Source of the DNA: a virus
DNA: 25,505 nucleotides
Reading direction: 5' to 3' (one strand)
Virus record (IMG/VR): IMGVR_UViG_3300044941_000120
Coordinates: 1-25,505 of that record
A program made the translations under genes and the position numbers. How positions within the stretch are numbered: position 1 is the first letter of the stretch; every line of letters starts with the position of its first letter. This document shows, one piece after another, positions 1 to 25,505 of this stretch. The notes beneath the pieces are model-generated. The model saw only the letters and a list, made by a program, of their open reading frames with translations, had not been told where the DNA came from and searched no databases.

Positions 1-579
<579 letters not shown>

Positions 580-2169: not shown

Positions 2170-5100
2170 CTAGTCTGCGTGAACATAAGCCATGAGCTTG
2201 CTGCTATGGGGTATGACGAGGTCTGGGTCTGGGATATCGTCCGGCATCCCCGACCATTGTGACAAGCGTAATGATCCTTGTTGTTTCAGTTTCCATAATG
2301 CACGCATGAAATCGTGTTTGCTCAACCCCAGCGGCTGACCGAACTGCTCGTACAGTTGGGTCGTTGGGGTACCGAAAGAAGAGGAAGCGATTTTATCCTT
2401 GATCCGCTGCCCCAAATCCGATAATTCGCCCTCCGAAATGGGCAGCGGGATATCAGGTCTGGTGAACGATTCTTGTGTGAGGGTTCGCGGGCCGCTCGTT
2501 ATTCCTTCTTCTTGGGCGATGTAATCTCTCAATACCTTGAGTTTTTCTTCTCGCGAATGTGCATTTGATAGCGGTGAGGCATACCGCTCTGGTTCGGGGG
2601 TCGTCTTTGGTTTTGTCGTCTTTGGTTTTGCTGCCTTCGGTTTTGAACTATCTGCGGTGGATGCGTTGGGGGTTGCTGGGGGTGACGGTGACGCTTGAGG
2701 TGTCTGCGCCTCAGGTGCCGAGGGGAATACCGGTGAGGCCGCGGTCTCAGAGGTCGAAGAGACCTCGTTAAACATGGATGGGGTATAAGGCCTGCCAAAA
2801 TTAAATAATTTGCCATCGTTAATTTCTGGAGCTTCGAGCTTACCCCGAGCGTGCATCTCTCGAATTTTGTCATTTACCTGATCTCTCACTACTTCGATCA
2901 ATCCGGTATCAGCCCCACGAATGCCAAATTGATTTGCAAATTGTCGCTGTTGATCTTCGCTCAATGAGTTGAAGGTATCCTCGAGTTGTTTTCTTTCTGC
3001 ATCGTTCAGAGTGCCACCAAACTGATATTGCCGCGGCAATTCTTCATCGAACGCTACTTTTCTTTCTGATTCTGTGCCGGTTTCCGATCTGAGTTCTGAT
3101 CTGACGTCAGATCGATTGGGTCCACTTCCGGCAGCCGCATCATCTCCCGATGTTGCTGCTCCACTCGCCGCAGTTGTTCCGGTGTCAATGGCTTGGTTTT
3201 GGTCTGAGTTGTGAAGTGCGTCGATTGCGGCGAGGTATCTTTGTTTGACATTCTCTTTCTCCTTCTTTGTTTTAGCCGCAGCCAGTTCGGCGGCAAACTG
3301 TTTTGTGATCCGACTATGTTCGCCAACCAAGTGGATCTCCCGATGGAAGTTTTCGGCATCTTGCTGGGCTTTCTGTAGTCGGCGTTTATTTTCTTCTACA
3401 GCAATCTGATTCCCCGCATCTGCCACACGTTCCGCACGGCTCTGATTACTGATAGCTTGATAGTCATTGGCTCGTTTGGCCAATTCCCTTGCGACATGGG
3501 CCTCGAGTTCTACTTCTTGGTCGAAGGTGGATTTTTCGTCTTCGATGTCGCCCCAGAGAGTATTTTCTGTTGTGGTGACCTTGCCAGCATTCGCCATTTT
3601 TTTGGCGGCCATCTCAATTTGTTGACGCGACCAGTCTTTACCTTCTTCTGCTCGTTTTTCGAGATGGCTAAACAATTTGTCCTGCAGGCCGTGATCTTTT
3701 AAATGCCGAGCGACGGCCACGGCTGTTTCCTCAGGGATTGCCCCTTGGACCATGCGATTAAAGGCCTGATCCGAGAGGTCGCGTAACTGCATTGCATCGG
3801 CAGCGACACGCCCCGACAGGGACACACCTGCCCTTTGCAGGTGTTCGATGTCTGCCCCCGTATCCCGTAAGTATTTTGCGGCGTCCGTTGCAGTTCCGCG
3901 TCCTTCTGCGATATTGGCCAGTGCCCCTCGGGCACGGGCTTCTTCAGCAGTAGCGGCATCGATGTATCGCACATTGATCTGCCCCGCCCCCAACCGACTG
4001 GCGAGTTCGTGCCTATGGTGACCATTGATGACATAATCCTTCCCGTCCGCTGGGTCTCGCCACACTAACAGCACACCACCTAGCTCGGGGTTCCACGTCT
4101 TGACCCCTTTCAGCTCATCAGTCACCCCATCCTTGCCAATACCTGATACCTTGTACTGGAAGCGTTTCGGATCGACGTGCAGAGAAGATGGGCTTACGGT
4201 GTAGACGTCTTCTTTTTTCGGTTCTTTTGGCGTGCCGTCTGCACGCACTGGCGTCTTTACGGCTCGTTTTTTTGCACGACTTCTATAAGCTTCTGATCTG
4301 TTTTGTATCTCTTCCCACTCCGCAGCATGTTGAGCTGCACGTTCTTGAATTTTGGCATTGTGAGCAGCGACGTGATTCCTCAATCGTGCAACAATTTCGG
4401 CGTGTTTTTTAGCTCCCCCCAGTTTAGCAGTCATATGTGCTCGAGCACGTTTTAGCTCAGCAAGGGTCAGAGCATGTGCGTTGTCTTGGAAGTCCGCAAT
4501 ATCCTGATCAGTAATTTCTTCCAGATTAAAAATTTTATCGACCACTGCCAAAGCCTTGGCAGCTGCGTCTTGGCGTGCTTTTTTTCGATCGCGATGAGAT
4601 TCGTACTCTCCGTTAGTTTCTTTACCACGTAATGCAGCCTCGGCCTGTTTTCCATACAGGACGCGGCCTGAGTCCTCCCCCGTTCCAATTGCTTTTATAC
4701 CGCCACGCTTCGACTTTGAGGAAGTCCAGCCGAGCACCAGTGAGTAGTTTACCCCCTTGAGTTTTGATAGGGCTTCGATCTCGTTGCGTGCCGATTCCGG
4801 GCTCCCGCGTTCTGTGGCTTCGTGCTGGGCTTCGAGCATCGCAGCAAGAATTGCATCGTTCTGGTTCGGTTTGCCCGTTGGTGTGCCCGTAATGCCCTGC
4901 ATATCGGCTTCGGGTTGCATTCCCTCTTCGTCACCCTCGCCCTCTGGCATCTGCATCGGGTCAGGTTGTCCGGTTTGTGCCGGTTGAGGTTGCCCCTGTT
5001 GCTGTCCACTATTCGCCCCCATTGGGTCTTTGCGGAAAATCTCGCGGAATGTGTCTTGCAGATCTTTTGCCACCAATGTGTATACCGTCTCTGGACCGAA

Positions 5101-23773: not shown

Positions 23774-23808
23774 TAGCGCGACACGGCCATAAAAGCCGTG
23801 TCGCGCTA
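23774..23808. terminator. Perfect 14-bp stem-loop after the RHH gene
   Basis: TAGCGCGACACGGC (23774-23787) and GCCGTGTCGCGCTA (23795-23808) pair without mismatch around a 7-nt CATAAAA loop. It begins 8 nt after the RHH stop codon. It has no U-tract on either side, so it is not a typical intrinsic terminator. It could still stabilise or end the transcript, or be a protein-binding palindrome at the boundary with the repeat block. Confidence 0.55.
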
Positions 23809-23905
23809 ACTGTGACCATGCCAAGCCGTGCCCAGCCACGCCGCGCCTCGCCCAGCCTTGCCCCGCCTCGCCTCGCCAGGCCACGCCGCGCCTCGCCGCG
23901 CCTCG

Positions 23906-23988
23906 CTTGTCTCTCGTGTATCGCTAGGGTGGCTACTTAGGCCGCTCATATGTCGGCAGGGATTCCCCCGCCGACCAGCGGCACGAAC
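23906..23988. repeat. Hairpin unit A
   Basis: Starts CTTGTCTCTCGTGTATCG and ends after AGCGG. The hairpin spans 23942-23981: outer CCGCT/AGCGG, inner GTCGGC/GCCGAC, apex GGGA/TCCC. Nearly identical to unit B (one mismatch over ~76 bp), 197 bp away. Confidence 0.85.
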
Positions 23989-24102
23989 CACGCCATGCCA
24001 TGCCATGCCATGCCTAGCCGCGCCTCGCCCAGCCTTGCCCCGCCAGGCCGCGCCTCGCCGAGCCCGGCCTTGCCCCGCCAGGCCGCGCCTCGCCGCGCCT
24101 CG

Positions 24103-24186
24103 CTTGTCTCTCGTGTATCGCTAGGGTGGCTACTTAGGCCGCTCATATGTCGGCAGGGATTCCCACGCCGACCAGCGGACACAAAT
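24103..24186. repeat. Hairpin unit B
   Basis: Same order of elements as unit A, hairpin at 24139-24178. Its segment CCCACGCCGACCAGCGG is the closest of the three to the end of the neighbouring 207-aa gene. Confidence 0.85.
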
Positions 24187-24369
24187 GAGCCTCGCCATAC
24201 CACGCCGCGCCTAGCCTTGCCTCGCCCGACCTCGCCTCGCCTCGCCGAGCCATGCCATGCCTTGCCTAGCCTCGCCGCGCCCCCCCGCGCCTGACCCAGA
24301 CTGACCACGCCAAACCACGCCACGCCTAGCCTTACCACACCCAGCCCAGCCAAGCCAAGCCTTGCCTCG

Positions 24370-24449
24370 CTTAGCTCTCGTGTATCGCTAGGCGGTTTGG
24401 GACCGCTCATATGCGGCAGGGAGCCCCCGCCGATCAGCGGACACGAATG
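24370..24449. repeat. Hairpin unit C, diverged
   Basis: Shares CTCTCGTGTATCGCTAGG and CCGCTCATATG with A and B, but the middle differs and the inner stem is reduced to CGGC/GCCG. Hairpin about 24403-24440. Confidence 0.8.
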
Positions 24450-24554
24450 AGGCTTGTCGACTTGCGACGGAGGCCTCGCCATACCACGCCGCGCCTAGCC
24501 TCGCCTCGCCAGGCCACGCCTCGCCAAGCCCCGCCGTACCACGCCTGGCCAAGC

Positions 24555-24638
24555 CTTGTTTAGTCCTCAAGTATTCCGAAGCTGACCACCTGGAATCGCC
24601 CATATGTCGGTCTAAAATCCCCCACGCCGATCAGCCGG
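24555..24638. repeat. Unit D: the homologous segment inside the 3' end of the 207-aa gene
   Basis: The last ~80 bp of the 207-aa coding sequence aligns with units A-C: CTTGT at the start, CATATGTCGG in the middle, and CCCCACGCCGATCAGC near the end. Here it encodes the conserved-looking GVGDFRPTYGRF end of the protein. The hairpin arms are weaker than in A and B. Confidence 0.6.
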
Positions 24639-25183
24639 CCGGCGTCGGTCAACAGCCCCAGGAGCATCTCCTGTGAGACGTACTCGGGCAAATTGACCAT
24701 GAAAATGAACTCTGCCTGCCAGCCGGCTCGCAATGCCGGCCGCACCCGGGTCACGCCGTTGCGCTGCACCTGCACCCGGCAGCGGTGCTCATAATCCCAT
24801 TCTGTGACCCCCAGGCTGGCTAGCGGCGTCAGGCTGACCACCGCCGCTTTGACGAGATCCTGGGCCGATTTTCTCGGGGACCGCGGGTCTTGCCGGAATT
24901 TGGCGGCCGCGATCACCGCCTGCCGCAAGTACTCTCCGGGCAGACAAATCTCCCCCTGATCGTTGCGGTAGACATACGATTCGATATTGTCTGTTTTCTT
25001 CGCCGCCGACCCCTTGGCGGCCTTGGATTTGGCCTCGACCGCCTCGCAGTTCCACCGATGGAATAGCAGGTCTGCTTCCCCTCGGATGGTCAGGCTGACG
25101 CGGTAGGGGATCGACCGCTCAATCTCGGCCGCCCCGCCGTTGGTCGTGTCGGGGCCGATGTTCTTGGCCGTTTTTGTGCTCAT
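24560..25183 (-). CDS. Conserved phage-type protein of unknown function, 207 aa
   Basis: AAGGAG 5 nt before the ATG. After a ~25-residue polar start come a beta strand (YRVSLTIRGEADLLFHRWN), an Ala/Lys-rich segment (EAKSKAAKGSAAKKTDN), then SYVYRNDQGEICLPGEYL and a helix. The C-terminal half has GVTRVRPALRAGWQAEF and ends with AGRLIGVGDFRPTYGRFQVV. I recall this arrangement from uncharacterised phage proteins; the Gly-rich end resembles a nucleic-acid-binding loop, but no function is claimed. The gene follows the HTH regulator by 9 nt. Its 3' end is the apparent source of, or is related to, the hairpin units downstream. Confidence 0.78.
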   Translation of the reverse strand: MSTKTAKNIGPDTTNGGAAEIERSIPYRVSLTIRGEADLLFHRWNCEAVEAKSKAAKGSAAKKTDNIESYVYRNDQGEICLPGEYLRQAVIAAAKFRQDPRSPRKSAQDLVKAAVVSLTPLASLGVTEWDYEHRCRVQVQRNGVTRVRPALRAGWQAEFIFMVNLPEYVSQEMLLGLLTDAGRLIGVGDFRPTYGRFQVVSFGILED

Positions 25184-25192
25184 TATATCTCC

Positions 25193-25450
25193 TTATTTGG
25201 CCGCCTTGTTGTCTGAGTTATTCTCGCCAGTATTGCTGGCCTCGTCGCTCTGGTCACAGACCAGAGCAGCCACGGTGACCCCCAGAGCGGCAGCTATCTG
25301 GGGCAACCGGTGTGCTCGTGGGGCTAGCCCACGCTCCCATCCGGCCACTACCGACTGGTGAGTGTTCAGAATTGCTGCTAGTTGCTTCTGTGTCAGCCCG
25401 GCGGCCAGTCTGGCCGCACGGATTCTTTCTGATATGTGTTGTGATTTCAT
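25193..25450 (-). CDS. XRE-family HTH transcriptional regulator
   Basis: 85 aa. Residues 6-63 are a complete Cro/C1-type HTH: ISERIRAARLAAGLTQKQLA, then ILNTHQSVVAGWERG with the recognition helix, then LPQIAAALGVTVAALV. The last ~20 residues are polar and disordered. The ATG overlaps the end of an upstream frame (ATGA). Such proteins act as dimers on phage or plasmid operators. It is co-transcribed with the 207-aa gene and may control this small operon. Confidence 0.88.
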   Translation of the reverse strand: MKSQHISERIRAARLAAGLTQKQLAAILNTHQSVVAGWERGLAPRAHRLPQIAAALGVTVAALVCDQSDEASNTGENNSDNKAAK

Positions 25451-25505
25451 TGCTCGCCATCCTTCTCCATGATGGCGGTGATGATGTGTCGCCGCCCTAA
25501 GACGC
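25447..25505 (-). CDS. C-terminal end of a gene entering from the right edge
   Basis: An open minus-strand frame enters from the right edge, encodes VLGRRHIITAIMEKDGEQ, and stops with TGA overlapping the HTH gene's ATG. This ATGA coupling is the same style as elsewhere in the window. Only 18 residues are visible, so identity is unknown. Confidence 0.5.
   Translation of the reverse strand, partial: VLGRRHIITAIMEKDGEQ

Follow-up and report, generated by a model that had tools for sequence, protein, structure and literature searches.

CRISPR systems have a relative, VIPR, that was described in 2026 in a preprint (PMC13142463). There, the effector Vipr is an ancestral RAMP and its guide, the vrRNA, consists of 9–16 GGY/NN repeats and ends in a 3′ tail. 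The NN pairs recognise double-stranded DNA, skipping one base from each pair to the next, and in nature the guides are directed at competing phages and in some cases at the VIPR loci of these (PMC13142463). Seven types are distinguished; a reference system is that of the Escherichia phage SUSP1 (type II; Vipr at KT454805.2 28474–29061), and another VIPR type has hammerhead-interspersed arrays (PMC13142463). We analysed a 25.5-kb virus sequence (IMG/VR record IMGVR_UViG_3300044941_000120, positions 1 to 25,505; “the window” below means this whole stretch) that carries a repeat block directly 3′ of a 207-aa gene on the minus strand. A first-pass annotation, made from the letters alone, had described this block as hairpin units separated by GCCNN pentamer tracts and had known of no named system with such a layout; a VIPR locus fits it (PMC13142463). 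Because protein, tract, and code agree, we are highly confident that the repeat block and the 207-aa gene form a phage VIPR locus, one in which the guide tracts are split by folded units.

The 207-aa protein (24560–25183, minus strand) is a RAMP-fold homologue of SUSP1 Vipr, as seen from its 74 relatives, its structure model, and its homology to the SUSP1 protein. The AlphaFold model (pLDDT 86, pTM 0.77; 43-sequence alignment) was compared with the PDB using Foldseek, and each of the 50 listed matches (best E 1.6e-6) was either a chain from a type III or type VII CRISPR effector complex or a Csm3 subunit of such a complex. A tblastn search with the protein reached phage SUSP1 and its relatives (E 1e-5), and a profile comparison with SUSP1 Vipr gave a probability of 97.3 and an E value of 2e-11 via the common loop GVGDxRPxxGRF; in the window, the C-terminal glycine-rich loop reads LIGVGDFRPTYGRF. 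Pfam returned no family for the protein, and its match in PHROG, 4652, is a family of unknown function. Relatives are encoded in 74 viral contigs, and those in genomes come mostly from Phycisphaerales MAGs (up to 80% identity), with others in cyanobacteria, proteobacteria, and Alicyclobacillus; a planctomycete host for this virus is thus plausible on sequence grounds. One relative, from Phage DSL-LC04 (OR003939.1; complete genome), is 62% identical and carries the annotation of an HTH regulator; short GGYNN runs lie upstream of it, and the gene downstream overlaps (L083:3721–3870 and 3995–5052). This phage is a possible experimental system.

Read on the strand of the vipr gene, the GCCNN tracts are GGYNN repeats, and the array—all of it on the minus strand—alternates four tracts of 17, 36, 23, and 18 repeats with units C, B, and A. 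Tract 1 (24471–24555; 17 repeats), of which the first 12 repeats form what we call guide 1 (24496–24555), is followed by unit C (24370–24452), tract 2 (24187–24366; 36 repeats, two of them imperfect) by unit B (24103–24186), and tract 3 (23985–24099; 23 repeats) by unit A (23906–23988; as a part of the array, 23906–23984). Tract 4 (23813–23902; 18 repeats) comes last, and a strong hairpin with 14-bp perfect arms (23774–23808) closes the array; closely similar hairpins end the arrays of three related loci (L004, L006, and L007), and this element is either the tail of the last vrRNA or the end of the transcript. Strict GGYNN runs reach 17, 13+19, 23, and 18 repeats, far beyond chance given that the longest run in composition-matched Markov-1 sequences (300 × 800 nt) was 4. 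Both units and tracts lie where the first-pass annotation had placed them; its view of the pentamer tracts as spacers has to be given up, since these tracts are the part that carries the guide information. Such GGYNN tracts adjoin vipr, on the gene strand, in most relatives. An HTH protein gene, truncated by the record end, lies 9 bp upstream of vipr (25193–25504, minus strand); it adjoins vipr in L007 too and is a candidate accessory (vap) gene, whereas the vap1 gene of SUSP1 is downstream. At the left record end, an open frame with long PEPEPEP runs (1–579, plus strand) is overlapped by GSGSG-type frames on the opposite strand.

The vipr relatives—viral contigs and Phycisphaerales and other genomes—offer an independent test, from sequence only, of the one-base-skip code. 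We decoded 153 tracts from the window and 74 relatives and scanned the resulting guides over 1.36 million positions on both strands, with tracts masked and skips of 0–3 allowed. Strong matches numbered 76 at skip 1 and none at skip 0 or skip 2; at skip 3 there were 14, and the top ones inspected sit in or beside relatives’ tracts that had escaped masking. Since coding DNA is periodic in three, we also shuffled the order of the NN pairs at skip 1: real 10-repeat guides gave 61 matches of 19/20 bases and 19 of 20/20, whereas no 10-repeat guide reached 19/20 in either of two shuffled sets. The skipped base was the wobble base of an open frame in 69 of the 76 strong matches. These matches derive from nine tracts, and many are homologues of one target; a score of at least 16 arose in 0.5% of shuffles, a rate at which roughly one of the nine tracts could be a chance hit. 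What the guides match are conserved stretches within genes of sister phages: vipr, a small gene adjacent to it (LSAICRAVGVMQPK), a helicase (NVNVLTTGFDAP), and a nuclease-like gene (VDLKTC), where “helicase” and “nuclease-like” are our reading of the sequences rather than database matches. Scores at the guides’ own loci, some of which are fragments, are far weaker (8–10 vs 16–23). Guides of this kind, which match vipr and further conserved genes in sister phages much better than they match self, bear on how CRISPR-like guides originated and on the sparing of self without a PAM.

Guide 1 follows this pattern. Its NN pairs (TT CA GT AC GG TT GA GT CT GA GA TA) spell F-Q-V-T-x-F-E-V-L-D/E-D/E-stop. 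When repeat 5 was allowed to vary and either stop was accepted, matches occurred in four of 2.9 million viral contigs, all four at vipr 3′ ends; with up to three mismatches, 5 of 45 records matched, every one at the vipr 3′ end by coordinates, and ten host-type genomes of 3–8 Mb gave no match. The score of guide 1 was reached in none of 1,000 shuffles. An exact target including repeat 5 was absent from the viral contigs: repeat 5 (GG) is mismatched in every match, and the stop codon in most. In a related locus, L008, the first guide falls on vipr in this register too, and no exact target was found for it with one repeat free. The last 9 residues of Vipr (24560–24590, minus strand), whose counterpart in other phages is what guide 1 spells, are also its most variable 9-aa stretch among ten close relatives, with a mean identity of 0.75 vs 0.95 for the body. 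This hypervariability is real but modest, and protein C termini drift anyway, so we regard it as suggestive only.

For the remaining tracts, no target was found for tract 3, tract 4, or the start of tract 2. The end of tract 2 gave 7 exact matches to MMSDDERDK-like peptides in about five different proteins; given that three contigs share one protein and that acid-rich codon runs are common, we treated these as chance, and tract 2 is left without a convincing target.

Over 76 nt, units A and B share 99% of their bases; C is more distant, at about 83% identity to them. All three share a predicted three-way junction with the units of L004, L006, L007, and L008, in which a long and a short hairpin extend from an outer stem (UCGUGU/ACACGA with CGCU/AGCG) and CATATG and TAGCGATACACGAGAG form the constant joints. 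In single-sequence folding, the units proved more stable than their shuffled versions (z −2.4 to −6.5), and the gene end, unit D (24560–24645, minus strand), did not (z +0.24). Unit A departs from the common form in that one strand of its outer stem is altered and the stem is absent from its predicted fold; the short hairpins are weaker in A and B. The hairpin stems vary on both sides yet stay paired (for example, GCGGU/ACCGC becoming GCAGC/GCUGC); RNAalifold, run on an imperfect alignment, found only two compensatory pairs, and we take the covariation as supportive, not strong. The earlier suggestion of a structured RNA family is supported. The nested hairpin proposed in the first-pass annotation does fold, but it was an incomplete description: most units, with unit A as the exception, fold as three-way junctions closed by UCGUGU/ACACGA. 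Such a constant folded unit comes after each of tracts 1–3, and the last repeats ahead of it are conserved (for example, GT AT GA TC), which points to the unit as the 3′ tail of the preceding guide; the units are thus most likely structured RNAs that stand between guides as vrRNA 3′ tails, C probably serving guide 1, B tract 2, and A tract 3. Other clades have different folded units between guides (L073:3081–3640; L075:4443–5020, e.g., GGGCCTTATTGCAAGGAATAGGGCGGCTAAGAACCGCCTTATGACGTGCAAT; L013:5615–6800; L024:5658–7031), suggesting that tails differ by clade. Two close relatives have long unit-free tracts downstream of vipr, one of 140 consecutive GGYNN repeats (L010:5636–6345) and another at L009:5596–5795, possibly the staggered, overlapping arrays mentioned in PMC13142463.

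As the first-pass annotation had noticed, the units resemble the end of the vipr gene. The alignment spans the whole length, from CTGATCGGC up to where the tract begins, and scores highest between unit D and a relative’s unit, L004:2773 (score 47); the window’s own units score 30, which is weaker and still above every one of 1,018 control segments of the window (≤25). In frame, unit L004:2773 reads LIGVRDSRPTYE, the counterpart of LIGVGDFRPTYG, the G-loop peptide of Vipr, and when synonymous codons were randomised, 23 of 2,000 trials equalled or exceeded the score, indicating that the signal lies mostly in the encoded peptide. The tail thus probably began as a copy of the 3′ end of vipr, with D as the probable ancestor of units A–C; relatives that lack units also conserve the gene end, which suggests that the direction was from gene to unit. 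This accords with the duplication of gene tail plus tract that had been put forward as the origin of the array. The suggestion of a mobile repeat is unsupported: a 21-base pattern from the conserved 3′ part of the unit occurs only in the window and four contigs of the same vipr clade. More broadly, the vipr relatives suggest how an effector gene may give rise to the tail of its guide RNA.

From these observations, we propose the following scheme. Transcription of vipr on the minus strand would continue through the array of guide tracts parted by folded units, yielding vrRNAs that each have a GGYNN run and, after it, a structured tail at the 3′ end. The GGYNN repeats would be coated by Vipr, a RAMP of one domain, much as the RAMP subunits Csm3 and Cas7 line the guide RNA in type III/VII systems. 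In each repeat the NN pair would be matched to double-stranded DNA, passing over one base, and the gene bound in this way would be repressed. Guide 1, spelling the last vipr codons of related phages, would switch off a rival’s VIPR, and the window’s own vipr gene would be spared through its mismatches. Duplication of the vipr 3′ end together with the start of its tract would have produced units A–C, later shaped into a tail. That both ideas hold together—a tail taken from the coding sequence of the effector’s own RNA-binding loop, and a guide 1 that attacks the same gene end in rivals—is a tentative proposal, to which we give a little under an even chance. If it is true, VIPR-against-VIPR conflict at the vipr 3′ end drives amino-acid change there, the change being expected in amino acids because wobble changes give no escape.

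Several other explanations were weighed. Guide 1 might be self-regulating, having evolved to bind its own vipr, with the mismatches due to drift and the matches elsewhere to common ancestry. Within its own locus, guide 1 does match the vipr 3′ end best, and the same is true of the first guide of L008; but that site, where the gene ends QVVSFGILED and mismatches guide 1 in 4 of 12 repeats, scores only 9, against 19 on other phages, and the remaining guides among the vipr relatives likewise match sister phages better than self. We therefore consider self-regulation unlikely and prefer rival phages as the targets. A more credible alternative, still the less probable one, keeps the same VIPR locus and makes units A–C processing elements between guides, such as a self-cleaving ribozyme or a nuclease site, in place of retained tails. 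Their position between guides, the invariant joints of their three-way junctions, and the different hairpin that closes the array would all suit such a role. Against it, searches of Rfam at gathering and relaxed thresholds found no match, either to a ribozyme, hammerhead included, or to any other family; the hammerhead core (CUGAUGA, GAAA) was not seen by eye in the units; and the conserved last repeats pass straight into the unit, as they would into a tail.

The first-pass annotation had further proposed that the units are silent cassettes whose recombination alters the Vipr C terminus. Descent of the units from the gene end and the variability of the last 9 residues are what such cassettes would lead one to look for, but the units contain frame breaks and stops and fold as RNAs, unit-like variants are absent from the gene ends of relatives, and among the relatives examined we saw no strain with unit sequence in place of the gene end. 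We judge this reading highly improbable and retain that of structured tails.

Set beside the described systems, the locus shares with SUSP1 VIPR a homologous RAMP protein with the GVGDxRPxxGRF loop, a GGY/NN guide array that flanks the gene on its strand, a phage-borne setting, one-base-skip matching, and some guides aimed at other VIPR loci (PMC13142463). It differs in that its tail is a three-way junction derived, it appears, from the vipr gene end, whereas SUSP1 has a pseudoknot tail, and in its tracts of 17–36 repeats; the 36 repeats of tract 2, which exceed the 9–16 of published vrRNAs, count against the VIPR reading, as do the failure to find an exact target for guide 1 or a convincing one for tracts 2–4 and the small number of compensatory pairs seen by RNAalifold. 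Like the hammerhead-interspersed arrays in the main text of PMC13142463, it places a folded RNA between successive guides, but its units match no Rfam ribozyme; it is a VIPR member with a tail type absent from that main text. The protein fold is that of CRISPR-Cas type III/VII effector subunits such as Csm3 and Cas7 (Foldseek E about 2e-6). Unlike those systems, the part examined has no CRISPR repeat-spacer array and no other recognised cas gene, and its guide information is broken by GGY every two bases; a CRISPR-Cas array was accordingly rejected as an identification, the block consisting of GGYNN tracts parted by units and not of contiguous spacers. A GCCNN-like stretch resembling the window’s array also occurs in mycobacteriophages, as in Mycobacterium phage Donkeykong (NC_051648.1 37049–37223; L132:2501–2675), where it sits inside annotated genes 48 and 49.
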